Below are positions 4,245 to 17,965 of a DNA stretch of 64,000 bases, piece by piece. The notes below the pieces were generated by a model. It saw only the letters and a program-made list of their open reading frames with translations, searched no databases and was not told where the DNA came from. This DNA is from Alphaproteobacteria bacterium (lineage in GTDB: Bacteria; Pseudomonadota; Alphaproteobacteria; Micavibrionales; Micavibrionaceae). The DNA lies in contig JAUHXT010000001.1 of the NCBI GenBank assembly GCA_030426925.1, positions 1-64,000 on the forward strand, written 5' to 3'. Numbering within the stretch: position 1 is the first letter of the stretch; every line of letters begins with the position of its first letter. The translations under genes were made by a program, and so were the position numbers.

Positions 4245-4272
4245 GGGCAGTAAGTTTTTACTGCCCTTTTTT
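4245..4272. terminator. Bidirectional terminator between serA and the convergent gene
   Basis: Perfect 9-bp stem GGGCAGTAA / TTACTGCCC with a four-base loop, followed by six T on the plus strand. The stop codon of the minus-strand gene lies inside the stem. Confidence 0.85.
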
Positions 4273-4764
4273 CTTGGCGTAATATCTGGCGCAAGCGTCT
4301 TTTAGCTCTTTGACCATTTGCGCGCCGACTTCACCGCCGTCACCCTTCATCTTTTTCTTGATGATGGCGTTCAGGGTTGTGTGATGTGCCCGCAGGATTT
4401 CAATGGAATCCTTGTCGAGTTCACTTAAGGCTTCCATGAAACTCAGGATTACATTGGCAAGGTTGCCGACCAGGTGGTAATGAAAGATCGCGGCATTGGC
4501 CTTTAGCTGCATGACCGGCCCTGTCAGCATCTCCCTGTAGGCGCTGATATCGTTGCCTTCGGCGGCTTGTGCCTCGTTGATCGCTTTTTCAAGCTGACCC
4601 AGGAATTGCTCACCCAGCGGGGTGAAATCGACATCGTTATTGTCGATAGCTTCCTGCATACGCTTCACAGAGGCTTCCTCCAGCGGACCGGAGCCTATTT
4701 TTTGCTGAAGCATGTAGCTGGCCTTGTAGACCTTTGCTTTATCTTGCTTTATTTCCTCGCTCAT
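4258..4764 (-). CDS. Uncharacterised helical protein next to a CheY-like regulator
   Basis: 168 residues, no signal peptide or membrane segment, probably all helical. Not recognised as a named family. The C-terminal third (AHHTTLNAIIKKKMKGDGGE) is rich in charged residues and has two adjacent histidines. It starts 12 bases after the stop of the response-regulator gene on the same strand, so the two are probably cotranscribed and may work together; a phosphotransfer or scaffold role would be a guess from context only. Confidence 0.75.
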   Translation of the reverse strand: MSEEIKQDKAKVYKASYMLQQKIGSGPLEEASVKRMQEAIDNNDVDFTPLGEQFLGQLEKAINEAQAAEGNDISAYREMLTGPVMQLKANAAIFHYHLVGNLANVILSFMEALSELDKDSIEILRAHHTTLNAIIKKKMKGDGGEVGAQMVKELKDACARYYAKKKGQ

Positions 4765-4776
4765 CCTGCTTTTCTT

Positions 4777-5301
4777 TTATTTTAATTCAATATCAATGGG
4801 GGTGTGGCCGGCAGAGTCATTTTCCCTGCGGAACGGGCCGCGGTAATTCGGATTGACGCGCCGGCGACGGTCGGGGCCGAAAAAGTCCTGTGTTTCAATA
4901 AAATCGCGGGGTGCGTTGATGACGTGTACGATGCGGCGGGCGAGGTCGTTTGCCGTAAAAGGCTTCACAAGGAATTCGGTTACACCGCAATCGCGCGCTT
5001 CCTCTACCCTTTGCCAGGCGCTGTAGCCGGTTATCAGCACGATCGGAACCATACGATTCGGAGACAGCGGGTTTTTTCTGATTTCCCGCGTCAGCTGCAT
5101 TCCATCCATCGGTTCCATCAACCAGTCAGTCAGGATGATGTCCGAATTGTATTTCTGGAACATTTCAAACGCCTTTTCCCCGTCAGGAGCCGACATTATG
5201 TTTTTGACGCCGAGATTTTCGAGGACAGAGATAAGCAATTTCCGCATAGGCGCTGTGTCTTCAACGATTAAGACATCGAGTTTTTCAAATTTAAATCCCA
5301 T
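4777..5301 (-). CDS. CheY-like response regulator with a basic C-terminal tail
   Basis: 174 residues. Receiver domain with acidic pair E14/D15, phospho-acceptor D59 (ILTDW), T91 (LITGY) and K113 (LVKPF), so all receiver residues are present. After the domain comes DFFGPDRRRRVNPNYRGPFR, a tail without a DNA-binding fold; similar tails occur in single-domain regulators of Alphaproteobacteria. Output is therefore probably through protein contact. It is the first gene of a two-gene unit with the helical protein downstream. The cognate kinase is not evident. Confidence 0.9.
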   Translation of the reverse strand: MGFKFEKLDVLIVEDTAPMRKLLISVLENLGVKNIMSAPDGEKAFEMFQKYNSDIILTDWLMEPMDGMQLTREIRKNPLSPNRMVPIVLITGYSAWQRVEEARDCGVTEFLVKPFTANDLARRIVHVINAPRDFIETQDFFGPDRRRRVNPNYRGPFRRENDSAGHTPIDIELK

Positions 5302-5438
5302 TACCTTCCAGTGCCTTGAAAATTACGCCGTTTGCACGGACATCAAAAAATGACCGGTACAAAGCTTTAGAAGACAGATTACTATGGTTTTGCGCGCCAT
5401 TACAATGGCAAGAATAAAGATAATATTATAAAAAAGAA

Positions 5439-5988
5439 CCCTGGTGCTTTTGTGTTTAGCCTGTTTACAAGAAACGAGCTGAACAGCACCAGGGCCTTGT
5501 CTGGGAAGCATGCTCCTGTCTGTCAACCGGGATAAATCCCTAAAGTTAAAACAATACAGGGGTCATCGCTTAAGATCTGGCCTTGCCAAACAGATCCGGG
5601 ACATACGGTCCTTCGCTTTTGACAAGCTGGGATTGAGTACCTCAATCCCTTATTTATAGTGGCCGATCAACCACTCGCTGATAACGATCGCGACATTAAA
5701 AGCCATGCGGAACGTCAAGATATGCACGCCTGTTCCAGCCTCTTTCTTGCAACCCAACTTATATTTTTACGTGTACGACCACGGGCCTTGGGTGGGCTGG
5801 ACGTTCATGCACCATTTCGTCCCTTAAGCGCCGAAAGTAAGTATGCAGAGCACCTTTTGCTTTTCGGACCCGGATGCTGACCAATGCATCCTGTCTGTCA
5901 GACCATCTCATCGACGCCTCATTAAGAGGTATTGCCTGAAGACATTTTCATGATGACTCGGTTTCCAAAGACGAGTCGAGTCTTTTTT
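5439..5988 (+). ncRNA. Candidate large structured non-coding RNA (~550 nt)
   Basis: No convincing gene exists here, but inverted repeats follow one another almost without gaps. Examples: 5439-5448 with 5485-5494 (CCCTGGTGCT / AGCACCAGGG) continued by GTTTAGC / GCTGAAC and GTTT / AAAC; 5574-5579 with 5591-5596; 5629-5637 with 5641-5649 (9 bp); 5658-5662 with 5671-5675; nested 5735-5740/5795-5800, 5752-5757/5788-5793 and 5770-5773/5780-5783; 5831-5836 with 5862-5867; 5872-5877 with 5886-5891; 5892-5901 with 5936-5944 (9 bp, one bulge). The series ends in a terminator-like hairpin. The GTTTAGC/GCTGAAC stem needs a U-G pair on the plus strand but an A-C mismatch on the minus strand, which favours plus. 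RNase P, tmRNA, SRP and 6S signatures were looked for and not found. Confidence 0.55.
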
Positions 5989-5990
5989 GC
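5955..5990 (+). terminator. Terminator-like hairpin ending the structured RNA
   Basis: Stem GACTCG (5955-5960) / CGAGTC (5972-5977), then GAGTC and a run of six T, with seven more T shortly after. The other end of the region also has a terminator-like hairpin for the minus strand (10-bp stem at 5439-5494 followed by TTCTTTTTTAT read on minus), so minus-strand transcription cannot be excluded. Confidence 0.55.
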
Positions 5991-6263
5991 ATTTTTTTGA
6001 AAAAAAATTTTAACAAAGGGGTGTTAATCGTAATTATATTACAAAACTAAACGGTTCAAATACGGCCATAAATCAGAGTCAAACACAGTTTGATGCCCAG
6101 ATTTATCCACATGGATAAACAAGCCGTTTTTTTCTTTTCGGGGGTGGAAAAATTGTCTTTCTGACGGATTTTTTTGCGTTCCGATTCACGAAAAAGAATC
6201 GATTCCGAGTGTTTTTTAAGAATCGCCGCCGTAATTTGCGGGCAACCATACGCCTTTTGATTC
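5990..6263. promoter_or_regulatory. AT-rich patch with GANTC cluster and DnaA-box palindrome
   Basis: Non-coding and rich in A/T runs. The 18-base palindrome TTTATCCACATGGATAAA at 6102-6119 contains a perfect DnaA box (TTATCCACA). GANTC sites lie at 6076, 6183, 6196, 6201, 6220 and 6259, with three more at 5955, 5973 and 5978: nine in 309 bases against about one expected by chance. A minus-strand promoter-like pair, TTGAAC (6059-6054) and TATAAT (6038-6033) 15 bases apart, is also present. This could be a cell-cycle-controlled promoter region or a replication origin; which one cannot be decided here. Confidence 0.45.
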
Positions 6264-8434: not shown

Positions 8435-11400
8435 ATGGAAACCTGCAAAACAATTGTTCTTGCTCAACCTGAGGCAGGCGCATCGGTTAATTACGAAATT
8501 CCCACTAATGAGACAGCGCAATTATCGTTTGGTCCGGATCAAATTTCCGGCATCAAACTGAATGATTTCGGCGGTCTTGAAATCAGCTTCCTGGATGGAA
8601 GCACAGCGACGCTTACAAATTTTGAAGCGCTGGTCGACTCAGGCAACCTCCTTTATTTAAATGACGGCACACTTATTGATCCTTCCGTCCTTACGGGCGC
8701 ACTTGGTAATGCCGCAGATCCTACTGAAAACTCCGATATCCTGACTATCGTCGGCCCCGCCGATAACGTGACACGCGAAATTAATCTGGAGCCCGGTCAA
8801 AAGTATGTACTCGATTTTGACTTTGCCCAGCCGAGCGCAGCCGAAGTGCAGGACGGCAAGCTTGTTATCTCTTTCGCCAATGACGGTATCCTTGTTCTCA
8901 ATAACTACGAAGAAGTGATGAATGGCGAGCTGCCAGCCGAACTCTCCCTGGCAAGCAGCGATACAATCATTTCCGGCGAAGAGCTGCTGACAAGCCTGAC
9001 GCTTGCCGAAGCTGCTCCGAGTGACGATGTACTGGCCTTTGAAGAAGAAGAAACAGAAGACGTCCGCAGAACGGAAGTTGCCGAAGCCAACCTTGAAGGT
9101 GAAAATGCAATCGGCGCCGGCGATGAAGCAGCTCTTGCTTATGAAGTTGCGCAAGTTGAGCCGGCATCCGGTACGGATGACGATCTTGATTCTATCGCTG
9201 AAGCCCTGCAACAGGTTGAGCCTGCTGCCGGTGAAACAGGCGGCGCAAGTGGCCGCGGCGGTTACGGATTTAACAGTAATCCGGGTTCCGAGCCTTTGGG
9301 CAGCATCGATGATGTGGGGCCTATCAATCCGACAGCGTTGAATTATCAGGCGCCTCAATTCTCTCCCGAACGTCTTGACGTTGAAGATCAGGGGCCGCTT
9401 TCCCCGGTTGACAGCAACCCGATTGTGTCCGGTCCGTTTGAAAACAGACTGGATGAAACAAATCTGGATTCAGGTAATCTGGTTGACAGCGGCCAGGTTC
9501 TTGTGGACTTCGGTACTGATGGTCCGGGTACGATTTCGCCGAGCGGTTCTGTCGAAGTTGAATGTTCAGTCCTGAACGACGACCTGTCATCCGGCGGTGT
9601 CGATGTTGTTATTTCTGAAATTATTCCTGGCTACTTCGGTGGCGTGACAGGGCAGGGTTATGTCGGTACTGCCGGCGGTGAGCTTGTCTTTACTCTTGTC
9701 ATCGATCCTGAAACAGGTGAATACACCTATACACAATTCAAGCCGTTCGATCATGCCGATGCGAACGATGCAAACGATGAAATCTGTCTGACATTCGGTG
9801 TTGTTGCCGAAGATAAAGACGGCGATACAACGAACACAGAAATTAAAGTGATTGTTGCTGACGATGCGCCGCTGGTGCTTGATCAGGCTACGAAAACACA
9901 TGACGAAACAGACTTTAACGGCAACCCGGCCCAGCTGATGGGTACATTCGCCGTTGATTTCGGTCAGGATGTTGACGGAACAATTACGCCGGAAGGTACG
10001 TTTACACCGGGCGGCTCACTGGCTGGCGGCGTTTTGTCATCCGGCGGCGACCCGATCACTGTGACGCCGACTGCCAATGGTTACGAAGGTAAGCTTGGTG
10101 ACGGTACGGTTATCTTTACGCTGGAAGTTGATTCTTCGACCGGTGATTACAAATTCACGCAATATGCACCGCTGGATCATGAAGACGGTGCAAATCCTGA
10201 TGATGTTATTTCACTGGAATTCGACCTTACGGTGACGGACTTTGACGGTGACAGCGCGACAGGTACGATCCGTATCAATGTCGTTGACGATGCGCCGGTT
10301 ATTGCAGGTCCGGCCACGGAAACAATTGACGAATCAGACCTTGGTCCTATCGTTGAAAACGGTTCTGTCGCAGTTGACTTCGGTGAAGACGGTGCGGGTG
10401 AAGTTGCACCGAACGGCGACTTTACACCGGGCGGTTCACTGGATAACGGTGCGCTGACTTCGGGCGGCGAGCAGATTGTCGTGACGCAGACAGCCGATGG
10501 TTATGTCGGTAAACTGCCGGATGACAGTGTTGCATTTACGCTGGAAATTGACCCGGCCACCGGCGATTACACATTTACACTGCTGAAACCTCTTGATCAT
10601 GCAGACGACACAAATGCGAACGACATCATTACGCTGGAGTTCGGTGTTACTGCCACAGACTTTGACGGTGACAGCGCGGCGACAACTATCACGATTAAAG
10701 TGAAGGACGATGCGCCGGAATTCCAACCGAATGGTCCGAAGCCGGATGCGGGTCTGGAAACAGTCGATGAAACAAATCTTGAAAACGGTAACATCGTAGA
10801 AACAGGTTCTTTGAACGCTGATTTCGGTCAAGATGCGCCGGGTTCTTACGCATTTACCACTGACAATTCTTCGGGCGGTTCCAAGTTGGGTGGCGTTCTG
10901 TCATCGAACGGTGTTCCGGTGGTCGTCAGCGTTGCAGGCAACACATATAGCGGTGTGGCGAATGGTACGACGGTCTTTACCCTGACACTTGATCCTGCCA
11001 GCGGTGATTACACCTATACGCAGTTTGAAGAGCTGGATCATGCCGATGCCAATGATGATAACGATGTCATTACACTGGAATTCGGTGTTGCGGCTTCCGA
11101 TAGTGAAGGCGAATCAGTGTTCGGCGAAATCGTCATCAACGTTAAAGACGATGCGGCCATCGCAAATGACGACTTTAATATGTACGACGTGACCAACGGC
11201 GGTACAGACGGTAATGTTATTACCGGCCTGAACGGCGGTCCGGGCGCTGCGGACAATCTGTCCGAAGACGTGCCGAACACGGTGACGAAAATTTCCTTTG
11301 GCGGTAACACAGTTGACGTTCCGCAAGATGGAACGGACGCCACAATCGAAGGCGATTTCGGTATCCTGAAAATCAACAAGGATGGCGAGTACACTTACGA

Positions 11401-14400
11401 AATTAAACCGGGTGTTACAGTGAGCGGAACCGGCGGTTCTTCGACACTTGACCCTGAATCAGGTGATGTTGCGGGTACGCAGGATTCCATCACTAAAAAC
11501 GGTATTACAGTGACATCTGCCAATGGTGCCGACCTGACATGGGTTGCACAAGACGGCGCCGGCATCGGGATTGCCGGTGGCGGTTCTAATAAAGTATTCC
11601 CGGCCGGTGAAACGCTGGAACTGACATTCGACCAGAACGTCAAGATGGCTGAGATCACCATTGCCGACATTGGCGCGAACAACGTAAACGACGGTATTGA
11701 TTTCGCTGTTTACCTGGCGAGTGATCCGAACACACCGATTATCGGTGAAGTCGGTATCGAGAATCTGACGATTGTTGATGGACGCGTTGTGTTCACAATC
11801 AATGCCGATGATTACGGTTCCGGCGCGGAAATCGCACAGATTGACGTGTTCTCTACAGATGCCGGCCAATATGGCGCTGCGTCCTTCCTGTTGCATGATG
11901 TTACCGTGACTTACGGTGGTCTGGATTGTATTCAGGATCAGTTTGTTTACACGCTGCGCGATGGCGACGGTGACACAGACACAGCGATTCTTGACCTGAA
12001 AGGTAAGGATTTGACCGACAATACGCCGGTTATCGTCGAGCCCATCAAGGAATATGTTGATGAAACATTCCTGGGCCCAATCACGGAAACAGGTACGGTA
12101 CAGGCTGACTTCTTTGGTGAAGGGCCGGGTACGATTGCCGGTAACGACGATTTCTCATTCGACGGTTCTGCCAAAAACGGTCAATTGACCTCAGGCGGTG
12201 AAGAAGTTGTTGTCACACAGGTTGGAGACAAATATGTCGGAACAGCCGATGGCACAACAGTCTTCGAATTGATGATCGAAGCGGACGGCGATTACACATT
12301 CAAATTGTATGAACCTCTGGACCATGCAGACGGTAACGATGACAATGACCGTATCAATCTGAATTTCGGTGTCGTTGCGACAGACGCCGATGGCGACACG
12401 GATACAGCGACCATTACGATCGTTGTGAAAGATGACGCACCGATTGCCAATGACGATTCAGCCGGTGTAGCAGAAGGTGGAAGCGTTACCGGTAATGTTA
12501 CAAATAACGATGATGGCGGTGAAGACACACCGGCAACAGTTGTGAATGTAAGATTTAACGGTACGGATTACCCTGTTCCTGCGACCGGCACAACGGATGT
12601 TCCGGGTCAGTATGGTACGCTGACGATTGCGGCGTCCGGTGCGTTTACGTACACAGTAACAGATCCGAACAACCCGGATGGTACAGATACATTTACGTAC
12701 ACTCTGGAAGATTTTGACGGTGATCAGGATACGGCAAAACTGGATGTTAAAGTGTCACCGAAAGATGACGTTCCGGTTGTTGTTGATCCGGCAGAGAAGA
12801 CAGTTGATGAAACAGCCCTTGACGGCGGACCGGTTATGGTCAGCGGTACGGTTGATGCGAATTACTTCAGCGATACACCGGGTGCGATTACGCCGAATGG
12901 TGACTTTGAAGCACTGGCAGACATCCTGAACGGTAACCTGACGCATAACGGCGTTGATATCGAAGTCAATGTTGTCGGTAACAGCTATGTCGGTACGGCA
13001 GGCGCAACGACAGTCTTTACACTGGATATTCAGCCGGATGGCGACTTTAAGTTTACATTGTTCGAGAACCTGGATCACGACGATCCGACCCGCGACAATG
13101 AAGTCATTGAACTGAACTTCGGTGTGACTGCCACAGACAGTGACGGTGACACGGATACAGCAGAAATCTCTATCCGCGTGAAGGATGATGTTCCGCGTAT
13201 TTCCGAGAAATTCATTACAATTGATGAAAGCGACCTGGATACAGGGCCGTTGATGGTTACGAACGCTGTGTCACATGACTTTGGTGAAGACGGTCCAGGT
13301 GAAATCCGTCCGACCGGTTACTTCGAAGTGAAAATCGATGACAGCGGTACAACACAGCCGCTGACGAAAGACGGCGAGCCTGTGACAGTAACACAGGACG
13401 GTAACGGCTATGTTGGTAAGCTGGCTGACGGCACTGTTGTGCTGACGCTGGACATCAATCCGCAAACAGGCGAATACACATACAAACAGTTTACGTCTGT
13501 GGATCATCCGGATACGAATGACCATGACGATGTGATGTGGCTGAAGTTCCAGGTTGAAATCGTTGATTACGATGGCGATACGGACACAACATTCATCGGT
13601 ATCGACCTGAAAGATGACGGTCCGGTTGCCCATGATGATACAGACACAGTGACGGAAACAGGCGGTTCAACCGGCGGTAACGTTATTACCAACGATGATC
13701 CGGGTGAAGACGAGCCGGGTTCCATTACGAACATTATGTTTGGTACGAACAGCAAGGATATTCCGGAAGGCGGTTCTGTCACGATTTCCGGCACATACGG
13801 TAATCTGACCATTCACTCTAACGGTTCTTACACGTATGCTCTGACCGCGGCACAAGTACCGGATACCGGTATGGAAGTGTTTAAGTACACATTGGCGGAT
13901 GCCGATGGCGATACGGATACGGCGGAACTGAAGCTGAATATTATCGGTGATGATGATACGCCGATCGTTCTTGATCCGGCGATGAAAACCGTTGATGAAA
14001 CAGACTTCTCATATGTCGGCAATCCGGCGGTTAAACAGCCGCTTACGGTTTCCGGCGATGTGGATGTTAATTACTTCAACGACACTCCGGGTGCGATTAC
14101 TGTGAACGACGATTTCACGTTTGAAGGTTCTGCCAAAGACGGCAAGCTGACATCCGGTGGTGTTGACGTTGTTGTTAATCAAATCGGCGATCATACATAT
14201 TCCGGTACGGCCGGTGGTACGAACGTATTCACACTGACGGTTCAGCCAGACGGCGGTTACAAATTCACATTGTTCGAGCCGCTGGATCACGATAATCCGA
14301 ATGATCCGGATGACACGATACAGTTGAATTTCGGTATCAAGGCAACGGACGCTGATGGTGACATGGATACCGCCACTATCATGATTAAAGTTGATGACGA

Positions 14401-17400
14401 CGGTCCGAGCATTTCCGATCGCACAGGCGCAGTGAGTGAAAACGACCTGAAGAATGGTGGTACGATTTCTATTACGCGTACTATTGACCATGACTTCGGT
14501 GAAGACGGTCCGGGTGACATTCATGGCAACGGTACGTTCATGAAAACCGGATCTCCCGATCCGTTGACATCCGGCGGTGCTGCAGTGATTGTTACACAGC
14601 AAGGCAACGGCTATGTTGGTAAGCTGGCGAATGGTACGGTTATCTTTGCACTGACAATCAACCCGGCCAACGGCACGCATACATACACGCAGTATGAACC
14701 TCTGGATCATACAGAAGGGCACAATGCCTCAGACAACGTGTTCTGGCTGAAATTCGGCGTTGATATTGTGGACTATGACGGTGACACAGACTCAGGGTTT
14801 ATCGTTATTGATGTTCATGATGGTGAGCCGGTTGCAAACGATGATGTTAACAACTTCTCCGGCAATACGGCGAACGGTAATGTTATTACCGGCCTGAACG
14901 GTGGTCCGGGTGCAGCCGACGAGTTGAGCCCTGACGTGCTGAATGAAATAAAAGCAATCTGCTTTGGTGTTAAGGAAATCCAGTTGACCAATGGCACGGC
15001 CACTATTGACGGCGACCACGGACGACTGACAATTCATTCCGATGGTTCCTACACTTATACATTGTTCCCTGGAGCAGGCGGTCAAGCTGGCAAAACATTT
15101 AGTTTTGATCCGAATTCCGCTCTTGTTTCCGGCTTCCAGACATCTGTGACACAGGACGGTATTACCGTATCTGCTTCCGCTGATCTGGTTTGGTTGTCCA
15201 GCAATATTGTTGGTAATCCAGGTATCGGTGTCGCCGGTGGTGCGAGCAACACCGGAAAAATCTACAAGGAGACGATTAATATTCATTTTGCTGAAGGTGT
15301 GGAAAGCGTTTCTATCGATGCGTCTGACATTGGTACAAACAACTTCAACCAGTTGTTTACTTTCCAGGCAACGTTTGCAGACGGAACCACAGCGAGCATT
15401 CAACAAAATACGGGGCAGCCGGGAGACGGTAACGTAACGTTCAGCTTCGACAATGGTGATTTCGGCAAAAGCTCATTGATCACCAATATTGTTGTAACGT
15501 CTCATACATCATGGTTGCTTGCAGATATCACTGCGGAAACGCCGGATACAAAAGTTCCTGTTATGGATACGTTTACTTACAAACTGGTAGACGGTGATGG
15601 CGACGTCAGTGAAGCAACGCTGAAACTTAATCTTGAGAATGATGTTCCAAAGATCGATAGTACGTCACGCCCGGTTTACGAAGAAAATCTGCGTGATGGT
15701 GGTATTATCGATGTCACACGTGATATCAGCTTCTTTGATTTCGGTAACGATGGTGCCGGTAACATTCATGTTGATGGCCGCTTCGAACTTCTTCTGAAAG
15801 ATAACGGAACACCGCAGACCCTTAAATCCTGTGGTAAGGAAGTTCTTGTTACCCAGAACGGTTCGAATGGCTATGTCGGTAAACTTGCCGACGGTACGCT
15901 CATCTTTACGATGACTGTGCACCCGACGAACGGTACTTACACATACAAGCAGTATGAAGCCCTCGATCACTTTGAAGGCCATGATCCTGCGGACGATGTG
16001 TTCTGGCTGAAGTTCGGTGTTGAAATCGTCGATTCAGACGGTGATACAGATACAGCCTGGATCAATGTTGATGTGAACGATGATGAACCGTTCGCGAATA
16101 CAGATGTCAACGTCTTCGACGGCATGATGACGACCGGCAATGTTATAACGGGTCAGAACGGTGGCGCAGGAGCAGCTGATGTCAAGAGTGCTGATGTTGA
16201 AACACTGGTAAACCAAATCTCCTTTAATGGTATGACGAAAGCTGTTTCCAATGGCGATGTTGTTATCAATGGTGAGTTTGGGAAGCTTGTGATCGATGAG
16301 CACGGTGACTACAAGTACACCTTATTTGATAATTCAGTCTCTCAACCGAAGGAAACGGTTTATCACTATAATGTGAAAAACCCGACCAGCAGTGTCAGCC
16401 ACAAAGGCGGTACTATCAAGGAAATCGATACAACCTTTAATAAAACGACGAATGAATTCACATTCGAACTGGTTATACGTGATCCGAGCGGTAAACATTC
16501 GGACGGCTTTAAGCTGGCCCTGAATGGTGGCGCGAACCCGAAAGGCATTCCGTCTGAAATGGCCATGCTGTATTTTGATGCGTCAGGCAGCGGTGAGCCG
16601 ATTATCACGGTTTACAGCTATAACGGTGAAAACACCAGTACGAGCTATAAAGACGGTTCTCCGGCCAGCGGTACGCAGGCCCCGGACAAGATTACAAGCT
16701 CTCTACTGTCTGATAGTCCGTTTACGTCCATTACTGAAACAATCGACGCAAACGGCAACCGCGTGTTCTCATTCACAATGGATGCGAGCGTGATCCAGAA
16801 TCACAATCCGCTTTACGGCGATGCATCCCAATGGACGGGCGTTGAGTTTGGCAATCAGATCGGGATGTGGATGCACCCTGCGGCCGGCCTGCAAACTTCC
16901 TACGGGTCCGATGGATATCTGACCTACTGGAATGCTGATATGAACGGTTACTATGACGTGGCTTACAAGCACGCAGAAGTTATCGAAATCTGCCCATGTG
17001 AGAAAAACTTCGAACCGGATGCGCATGATATTGGATCAAACCAATACAGCCTGACACTGGACGGCATTACTGTGAGTGTTGGCAACCCGCTGTACAGCCA
17101 CCTGTCAAAAGGTACGCTAAGTTGGGTTGACGTTGGTGATGGTCCGGGTATCGGTATTAACGGTAACGGTTCCAACAAAGTCTGGCAGCCAGGTGAAGTT
17201 CTGGAAATCAGCTTTGATGAAGCGGTTACGAAGGCTACTTTGGATTTTGCTGATATCGGCTCCAACGACCGTTATGACGGGCTGGACTTCAAGATTTACC
17301 TGCAAGGCCAAGCTCAACCGGTTGAATGGGAATTCGACATTGGAGCAGCAAATCCGCAAGATGGCGTGCTGATGAATGTGATGATTGACTCTGCCAACTT

Positions 17401-17965
17401 TGGCGGTGCATTGATCGAACGCATTGAGGTGTTCTCAATCGATAACTCACATTTGGAGCAGACATCCTTCCTGCTTAATAGCGTTCATGCTGAATGCCCG
17501 CCGGAAGATGTTATAGCCGGAACTGATACCTTCGAATATCAAATTGTTGATAAAGACGGTGATACTTCTTCGGCTAACCTTGTATTCACAAATGGTGAGA
17601 GTGGCGCTTTCAGCAGTACGCAGAATGCTCAACCCCTAAACTTTGCGACATTTGATGGCGGCAGCAATGACGTTCTGTTTGAAAGCTTCGATGACGATGC
17701 TTTCCTTTATTTAAGTGCTGATGATGGCGGCGGCCCAATCAAGGATTCTACCTTTGGTGAGGGGTCTATAGATCTGTCGCAGTTGCTGGAAAATGATGAT
17801 GAAATCAACGGTGCTATTGGAGATTTCGTGTTCATGTCACATGCTAATGGCGATAACACGATTTCTGCCGATCAGAACTTAGGTGGCAAGACAACCGATG
17901 TGGTCACATTGGACAGCACGGTTGTTGACCTGAATGAACTGCTTGGTCAGGACACTGTGGTTTAA
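8435..17965 (+). CDS. Giant repeat-built type I-secreted adhesin (3176 aa)
   Basis: An acidic surface protein of LapA/BapA style. Residues 1-330 are a unique N-terminal region like a retention module, with a PAAG sequence at 263-266 that resembles the di-alanine site cut by LapG proteases. Ten T1SS-143-type repeats follow, starting near residues 335, 485, 626, 774, 1204, 1452, 1592, 1848, 1995 and 2409; each has a DET/DES opening, an FGxDGPG-like turn, PLDHAD, and a DxDGDTDT...VxDDAP end. VCBS-like and other domains are inserted between them. The last ~70 residues (GSIDLSQLL ... VVTLDST, DLNELLGQ) look like a type I secretion signal. No RTX nonapeptides are seen. The exporter genes follow directly. 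The ligand is unknown. Confidence 0.9.
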   Translation: METCKTIVLAQPEAGASVNYEIPTNETAQLSFGPDQISGIKLNDFGGLEISFLDGSTATLTNFEALVDSGNLLYLNDGTLIDPSVLTGALGNAADPTENSDILTIVGPADNVTREINLEPGQKYVLDFDFAQPSAAEVQDGKLVISFANDGILVLNNYEEVMNGELPAELSLASSDTIISGEELLTSLTLAEAAPSDDVLAFEEEETEDVRRTEVAEANLEGENAIGAGDEAALAYEVAQVEPASGTDDDLDSIAEALQQVEPAAGETGGASGRGGYGFNSNPGSEPLGSIDDVGPINPTALNYQAPQFSPERLDVEDQGPLSPVDSNPIVSGPFENRLDETNLDSGNLVDSGQVLVDFGTDGPGTISPSGSVEVECSVLNDDLSSGGVDVVISEIIPGYFGGVTGQGYVGTAGGELVFTLVIDPETGEYTYTQFKPFDHADANDANDEICLTFGVVAEDKDGDTTNTEIKVIVADDAPLVLDQATKTHDETDFNGNPAQLMGTFAVDFGQDVDGTITPEGTFTPGGSLAGGVLSSGGDPITVTPTANGYEGKLGDGTVIFTLEVDSSTGDYKFTQYAPLDHEDGANPDDVISLEFDLTVTDFDGDSATGTIRINVVDDAPVIAGPATETIDESDLGPIVENGSVAVDFGEDGAGEVAPNGDFTPGGSLDNGALTSGGEQIVVTQTADGYVGKLPDDSVAFTLEIDPATGDYTFTLLKPLDHADDTNANDIITLEFGVTATDFDGDSAATTITIKVKDDAPEFQPNGPKPDAGLETVDETNLENGNIVETGSLNADFGQDAPGSYAFTTDNSSGGSKLGGVLSSNGVPVVVSVAGNTYSGVANGTTVFTLTLDPASGDYTYTQFEELDHADANDDNDVITLEFGVAASDSEGESVFGEIVINVKDDAAIANDDFNMYDVTNGGTDGNVITGLNGGPGAADNLSEDVPNTVTKISFGGNTVDVPQDGTDATIEGDFGILKINKDGEYTYEIKPGVTVSGTGGSSTLDPESGDVAGTQDSITKNGITVTSANGADLTWVAQDGAGIGIAGGGSNKVFPAGETLELTFDQNVKMAEITIADIGANNVNDGIDFAVYLASDPNTPIIGEVGIENLTIVDGRVVFTINADDYGSGAEIAQIDVFSTDAGQYGAASFLLHDVTVTYGGLDCIQDQFVYTLRDGDGDTDTAILDLKGKDLTDNTPVIVEPIKEYVDETFLGPITETGTVQADFFGEGPGTIAGNDDFSFDGSAKNGQLTSGGEEVVVTQVGDKYVGTADGTTVFELMIEADGDYTFKLYEPLDHADGNDDNDRINLNFGVVATDADGDTDTATITIVVKDDAPIANDDSAGVAEGGSVTGNVTNNDDGGEDTPATVVNVRFNGTDYPVPATGTTDVPGQYGTLTIAASGAFTYTVTDPNNPDGTDTFTYTLEDFDGDQDTAKLDVKVSPKDDVPVVVDPAEKTVDETALDGGPVMVSGTVDANYFSDTPGAITPNGDFEALADILNGNLTHNGVDIEVNVVGNSYVGTAGATTVFTLDIQPDGDFKFTLFENLDHDDPTRDNEVIELNFGVTATDSDGDTDTAEISIRVKDDVPRISEKFITIDESDLDTGPLMVTNAVSHDFGEDGPGEIRPTGYFEVKIDDSGTTQPLTKDGEPVTVTQDGNGYVGKLADGTVVLTLDINPQTGEYTYKQFTSVDHPDTNDHDDVMWLKFQVEIVDYDGDTDTTFIGIDLKDDGPVAHDDTDTVTETGGSTGGNVITNDDPGEDEPGSITNIMFGTNSKDIPEGGSVTISGTYGNLTIHSNGSYTYALTAAQVPDTGMEVFKYTLADADGDTDTAELKLNIIGDDDTPIVLDPAMKTVDETDFSYVGNPAVKQPLTVSGDVDVNYFNDTPGAITVNDDFTFEGSAKDGKLTSGGVDVVVNQIGDHTYSGTAGGTNVFTLTVQPDGGYKFTLFEPLDHDNPNDPDDTIQLNFGIKATDADGDMDTATIMIKVDDDGPSISDRTGAVSENDLKNGGTISITRTIDHDFGEDGPGDIHGNGTFMKTGSPDPLTSGGAAVIVTQQGNGYVGKLANGTVIFALTINPANGTHTYTQYEPLDHTEGHNASDNVFWLKFGVDIVDYDGDTDSGFIVIDVHDGEPVANDDVNNFSGNTANGNVITGLNGGPGAADELSPDVLNEIKAICFGVKEIQLTNGTATIDGDHGRLTIHSDGSYTYTLFPGAGGQAGKTFSFDPNSALVSGFQTSVTQDGITVSASADLVWLSSNIVGNPGIGVAGGASNTGKIYKETINIHFAEGVESVSIDASDIGTNNFNQLFTFQATFADGTTASIQQNTGQPGDGNVTFSFDNGDFGKSSLITNIVVTSHTSWLLADITAETPDTKVPVMDTFTYKLVDGDGDVSEATLKLNLENDVPKIDSTSRPVYEENLRDGGIIDVTRDISFFDFGNDGAGNIHVDGRFELLLKDNGTPQTLKSCGKEVLVTQNGSNGYVGKLADGTLIFTMTVHPTNGTYTYKQYEALDHFEGHDPADDVFWLKFGVEIVDSDGDTDTAWINVDVNDDEPFANTDVNVFDGMMTTGNVITGQNGGAGAADVKSADVETLVNQISFNGMTKAVSNGDVVINGEFGKLVIDEHGDYKYTLFDNSVSQPKETVYHYNVKNPTSSVSHKGGTIKEIDTTFNKTTNEFTFELVIRDPSGKHSDGFKLALNGGANPKGIPSEMAMLYFDASGSGEPIITVYSYNGENTSTSYKDGSPASGTQAPDKITSSLLSDSPFTSITETIDANGNRVFSFTMDASVIQNHNPLYGDASQWTGVEFGNQIGMWMHPAAGLQTSYGSDGYLTYWNADMNGYYDVAYKHAEVIEICPCEKNFEPDAHDIGSNQYSLTLDGITVSVGNPLYSHLSKGTLSWVDVGDGPGIGINGNGSNKVWQPGEVLEISFDEAVTKATLDFADIGSNDRYDGLDFKIYLQGQAQPVEWEFDIGAANPQDGVLMNVMIDSANFGGALIERIEVFSIDNSHLEQTSFLLNSVHAECPPEDVIAGTDTFEYQIVDKDGDTSSANLVFTNGESGAFSSTQNAQPLNFATFDGGSNDVLFESFDDDAFLYLSADDGGGPIKDSTFGEGSIDLSQLLENDDEINGAIGDFVFMSHANGDNTISADQNLGGKTTDVVTLDSTVVDLNELLGQDTVV
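9437..16095 (+). repeat. Ten tandem T1SS-143-type domain repeats in the adhesin
   Basis: About 140-residue units sharing DET(N/D)L openings, GSL..G.LTSGG, YVGK or YVGTA, VFTL, YTYTQ..PLDHAD.ND.ND and FGV.ATD.DGDTDTA. Some units are contiguous (2-3-4, 6-7, 8-9), others are separated by inserted domains of 100-400 residues. DNA identity between units is only partial, so these are old duplications. Confidence 0.85.

Follow-up and report, generated by a model that had tools for sequence, protein, structure and literature searches.

What is encoded between positions 5439 and 5988 of the window, and on which strand? The window is a stretch of 64,000 nucleotides from a genome of the Micavibrionaceae, and a preliminary description, made from its letters, had proposed here a large structured RNA that fits no recognised family, in a stretch free of plausible genes and covered by nested inverted repeats. 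The inverted repeats are present, for example at 5439-5451/5482-5494 and 5629-5637/5641-5649, and the folding of 5439-5988 was compared with dinucleotide shuffles, giving z values of -4.01 for the plus and -3.93 for the minus strand, with none of 100 shuffles as good on either strand. A conserved protein gene was sought in the same interval and none was found: two open reading frames, 5323-5526 on minus and 5659-5880 on plus, were rejected as chance frames, matched by tblastn in homologues over short patches only, and runs free of stops were close to the values from shuffled sequence. The 12-base direct repeat TCCTGTCTGTCA does occur twice, as had been reported, but it is not kept in the alignment of relatives and was for that reason set aside as incidental, no part of the RNA feature.

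In five further genera of the window's family, blastn of related genomes picked up patches in collinear order, and the intergenic stretches located before the gene for the same response regulator, together with the region from genome G003, aligned over their length with strikingly conserved blocks. A covariance model built from nine sequences recovered held-out members (e.g., G034, G124, G003, G007, G009, G030, and the window itself) and found one copy each in 31 of 104 genomes of the family. Models R1 and R2 were made for the plus strand, and R3 is the corrected minus-strand model. R3 found the RNA, always as one copy per genome, in 39 of the 142 genomes from the order, distributed over 18 genera, with 34 genomes in the window's family and five in a second family; when 385 genomes drawn from the class were searched with R3, there was none in the other 381. 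Weak R2 matches in G179 and G011 lay within or beside open reading frames and were gone with R3. Of 37 loci picked up by a pattern scan across about 85,000 species, 16 passed the model; all 16 were Alphaproteobacteria records, two of them labelled Micavibrio sp., and the remaining matches, in Citrobacter and others, failed it. No locus in the viral collections passed the model, and a phage, plasmid or viral origin was rejected, given no phage match, a single chance 51-base match to a plasmid, and viral pattern matches that failed the model. The RNA is also absent from G022 and G076, two single-contig genomes thought to be near Micavibrio aeruginosavorus.

Compensatory changes were found in four separately aligned elements, far above shuffled and slid controls, so that the covariation among homologous regions ahead of this response regulator, proposed as a check in the preliminary description, was indeed observed. 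The terminal stem, aligned with its loops removed beforehand, had double changes in 9 of 9 pairs across 26 species (score 0.487 vs. 0.248 shuffled), and the U-rich tails that follow it were also seen in relatives. In the core, read on minus, double changes affected 15 of 17 pairs (0.442 vs. 0.217 shuffled and at most 0.130 slid), and R3 matched the core of the window with an E value of 1.8e-9. The H-type pseudoknot was paired in 180 of 180 alignment cells, 37 of them double-change cells, in 30 distinct sequences (0.531 vs. 0.222), and the UUGGUC hairpin had double changes in 7 of 7 pairs (0.644 vs. 0.325 shuffled). The pieces for the terminal stem, the UUGGUC hairpin and the pseudoknot were cut by hand around conserved anchors, which somewhat favours structure; this is an insufficient explanation of the covariation because of the slid controls and the agreement between separate elements. 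Long-range helices connecting the elements were visible in consensus folds; they were seen by folding and stand outside the formal covariation counts. Within the RNA of G009, G123, G088, and apparently G058 (loci L094, L095, L098, and L103), there are two tandem copies of the pseudoknot motif GUGGUCGC(G/A)CAC.

The same alignments place the RNA on the minus strand, opposite to the one first proposed. The plus strand had been preferred from one U-G pair in the stem GTTTAGC/GCTGAAC, and that single pair does point to plus, but the wobble pairs across relatives point to minus. Read on plus, the non-Watson-Crick cells of the element alignments comprised 72 A.C, 9 G.U, and 38 others; since an A.C on plus is a G.U on minus, this predominance of A.C assigns the RNA to minus. 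Consensus energies from RNAalifold on two sets of full-length alignments were lower for minus in both (-142.3 vs. -125.9 and -136.5 vs. -101.4). Recurrent loops on minus were often cUUCGg (CUUCGG), and the hairpin that would open the plus strand at its 5' side is, when read on minus, an intrinsic terminator. The plus-strand reading was ruled out by the wobble asymmetry and the consensus energies, and these together with the loops and the terminator therefore indicate an RNA running from about 6026 down to 5430.

The ends were revised accordingly (Table 1). The hairpin and T-run described as a terminal terminator do exist on plus, at 5955-5988, but they are located at the 5' end of the RNA, and the intrinsic terminator is the minus-strand hairpin at 5430-5494. 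The interval first given, 5439-5988, overlaps the RNA, which spans 5430 to at least 5982 and has a likely start near 6026, as placed from a -10-like box. Members were 522-820 nt long (median 577, n = 31), measured from the terminator to the GACUCGAC block, and the true 5' end may lie some 45 nt further upstream. The locus is very likely a standalone structured non-coding RNA gene on minus.

Table 1. Positions in the window of the RNA gene, its structural elements, and its surroundings.
Positions	Strand	Feature	Basis or remark
4777-5301	minus	Response regulator, usual downstream neighbour on the RNA strand, outside the RNA	Pfam Response_reg
5430-6026	minus	Whole RNA gene	Conserved in 39 genomes of the order; strand from wobble pairs and consensus energy; ends placed from sequence
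5430-5494	minus	Intrinsic terminator, RNA 3' end: stem 5485-5494/5439-5448, then UUCUUUUUU (5438-5430)	z -5.46
5505-5512	minus	Conserved block GCUUCCCA (TGGGAAGC on plus), just before the terminator stem	Near-invariant in alignments
5626-5715	minus	Conserved core: helix with UCGCGA; hairpin GUGG-UUGAUC-CCAC (5671-5674/5659-5662); AUAAAUAA; hairpin 5641-5649/5629-5637	Region behind models R1-R3
5762-5785	minus	Pseudoknot motif CCCGUGGUCGUACACGUAAAAAUA: 5770-5773 with 5780-5783, 5762-5763 with 5774-5775	Covariation
5872-5891	minus	Hairpin 5886-5891/5872-5877, conserved loop UUGGUC (GACCAA on plus)	Covariation
5975-5982	minus	Conserved GACUCGAC block near the RNA 5' end	In nearly all members, including G055, G052, and G127 of the second family
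6030-6042	minus	Candidate -10 region of the RNA promoter, GTAATATAATTAC on minus	Position and AT-rich form kept in relatives; putative
6103-6111	plus	DnaA-box-like TTATCCACA upstream of the RNA	Consensus match
6183-6262		GANTC cluster upstream of the RNA	Direct reading
8435-17965	plus	Giant adhesin, 3176 aa, T1SS-143/VCBS repeats, BapA/Bap/LapF type	NCBIfam; constant neighbour across the RNA promoter

The surroundings of the gene were examined in the same genomes. Each of the 33 family members inspected has a giant adhesin of the BapA/T1SS type beyond the RNA promoter, no more than about 4 kb away and in most cases directly divergent. Because the matches rest on a repeated-domain protein, they establish the type of the adhesin and fall short of strict orthology. 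TspO and an aldehyde dehydrogenase stand between the RNA and the adhesin in the window. Two members of the second family retain the aldehyde dehydrogenase and the adhesin, and in four others no adhesin was seen, three of these being on short contigs. In the second-family genus g49 (L078, L079, L080, and L081) the RNA seems to lie apart from the adhesin, an uncertain observation with three of the four contigs short. Of 104 family genomes, 63 had the N-terminus of the adhesin, in many cases with no RNA, and about two thirds of the family genomes lack the RNA, many of them with the adhesin. The link is thus one-sided, since the adhesin is often present without the RNA, and neither absolutely needs the other, as the RNA is absent from many adhesin-bearing genomes. 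In M. aeruginosavorus, GMV0107, which adjoins type I secretion genes, is expressed mainly in the attachment phase, with an index of 16.9 vs. 0.3 (PMC3189940). By its size and neighbourhood, GMV0107 is the likely counterpart of the giant adhesin.

The constant linkage to the adhesin and the divergent transcription in most members would suit an antisense regulator, in trans or in cis, pairing with the translation start of the adhesin mRNA. However, complementarity to the adhesin start was not in excess in 11 genomes, with z from -1.7 to +1.8 and differing positions, and we regard such a role as unlikely.

Another possibility is that the operon of the response regulator has the RNA as its very long 5' leader, with the hairpin 5430-5494 as an attenuator sensing a ligand or a protein. 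The response regulator begins about 130 nt past the terminator in the window and is the next gene on the same strand in most members. A cis-regulatory leader is always followed by its regulated gene on the same strand, but in G001, G003, and G063 convergent genes take the place of the response regulator after the terminator, so that the RNA is there nobody's leader, and other genes follow it in the second family. Many genomes also retain the response regulator without the RNA, and the size and complexity of the RNA go beyond those of known attenuators; a leader of this kind is accordingly most improbable.

Three further observations concern this side of the locus. The 168-aa protein encoded beside the response regulator, at 4258-4764 of the window, is conserved in the family and has no Pfam or NCBIfam match. 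In genus g6 (L088, L109, and L111) the response regulator and this partner gene are tandemly duplicated beside the RNA. In genus g35, G064 and G061 (L023 and L041) carry the response regulator and the adhesin but lack the RNA; their gap is about 450 nt shorter than that of relatives, as would follow from a clean loss of the RNA.

Regulator sites were counted as consensus matches in the stretch between the RNA and the next gene, over the set of loci. The CtrA box was taken as TTAA-N7-TTAA, and the motifs are those of Caulobacter (PMC4287350). DnaA-box-like sites numbered 23 (about 1.4 expected), and 18 lay at 50-100 nt from the RNA 5' block; there were 228 GANTC sites vs. about 55 expected; and 43 CtrA boxes vs. 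3.6 expected, 35 of which lay 50-150 nt from the start of the next gene. DnaA-box-like and GANTC sites thus cluster at the RNA start, and CtrA boxes at the adhesin start. At loci where genes intervene before the adhesin, the former two remain by the RNA, and hardly any CtrA boxes are present. The RNA-adhesin region holds 5 of the 23 CtrA boxes in 400 kb of G034, the densest cluster there. The upstream regions of L096-L115 are suggestive of cell-cycle control of the adhesin itself; for the RNA, the site pattern leaves the chances of such control about even.

These adjoining DnaA-box-like, GANTC, and CtrA sites recall the Caulobacter origin, yet a DNA-level element, a replication origin or similar whose inverted repeats would function as DNA and yield no RNA, is hardly conceivable: the asymmetry of the wobble pairs between strands, the pseudoknot, the tetraloops, and the U-tract terminator are characteristic of RNA, the GC-skew minimum of G034 is about 70-110 kb away with dnaA further off, which rules out an origin proper, and the window has no sign change in GC skew, although only 6 kb of it lie to the left of the element.

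The reading that we prefer is thus a single-copy, standalone, large structured non-coding RNA on minus that acts in trans, and as one joint claim it is probable. The RNA would be transcribed as its own unit, from a putative promoter region of its own to its own intrinsic terminator, with transcription timed by DnaA and by GANTC methylation (CcrM), and the adhesin promoter with its CtrA boxes would be controlled separately. The trans action of the RNA would then be that of a folded scaffold, made of RNA alone or of RNA and protein, in an attachment or cell-cycle programme; a scaffold role tied to attachment is offered tentatively. Equally speculative is the fullest version, a new class of large ornate RNA confined to Micavibrio-type Alphaproteobacteria and similar in complexity to OLE, ROOL, and GOLLD, whose DnaA/CcrM-timed promoter would face a CtrA-controlled giant adhesin and whose product might be an RNA or RNP assembly for surface attachment or the predatory cell cycle.

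Few structured bacterial RNAs exceed 500 nt, and those classes that are known comprise ribozymes, RNP cores, and unusual assemblies; RNAs so large and elaborate often prove to be molecular machines or scaffolds. The host group of Alphaproteobacteria includes epibiotic predators. Against this background, we have an RNA that is conserved in 18 genera of one order, contains a pseudoknot paired without exception as well as unpaired blocks that are conserved, and is linked to a giant adhesin whose likely counterpart in M. aeruginosavorus has its main expression in the attachment phase. Large structured non-coding RNAs are already known as a general kind; new is an RNA that apparently lies outside every described family, and its gene is a concrete target for structural and functional work.

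As anticipated in the preliminary description, no known family was recognised. At the gathering score, neither the window nor any of seven homologous loci matched an Rfam 15 family, OLE, ROOL, GOLLD, HEARO, RNase P, tmRNA, 6S, and SRP included, and at relaxed thresholds the matches were at chance level or none. RNase P RNA and alpha tmRNA, which are likewise large, folded, and single-copy per genome, were found elsewhere in the same genome (contigs C55 and C86) and had no match at the RNA locus. In the open-access literature we found no description of such an RNA in this bacterial group, though it may be described elsewhere; the conserved large RNA gene, assigned to no Rfam family, is thus apparently undescribed. 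CcnA of Caulobacter crescentus is a cell-cycle non-coding RNA of 182 nt in the replication origin (PMC8959179). The present RNA shares with it the setting in Alphaproteobacteria beside CtrA and DnaA sites and may, like CcnA, be timed by the cell cycle, but it has about three times the length of CcnA and is placed outside the origin, about 70-110 kb from the skew minimum in G034. OLE, ROOL, and GOLLD are large ornate bacterial RNAs (PMC12286853). The present RNA differs from them in having no Rfam match and in its host range of one order of Alphaproteobacteria; yet with its 522-820 nt, where about 500 nt or more and extensive covarying structure mark a large ornate RNA, with its many covarying helices and conserved unpaired blocks, and as a standalone unit, it most resembles these three, in kind and not by homology.
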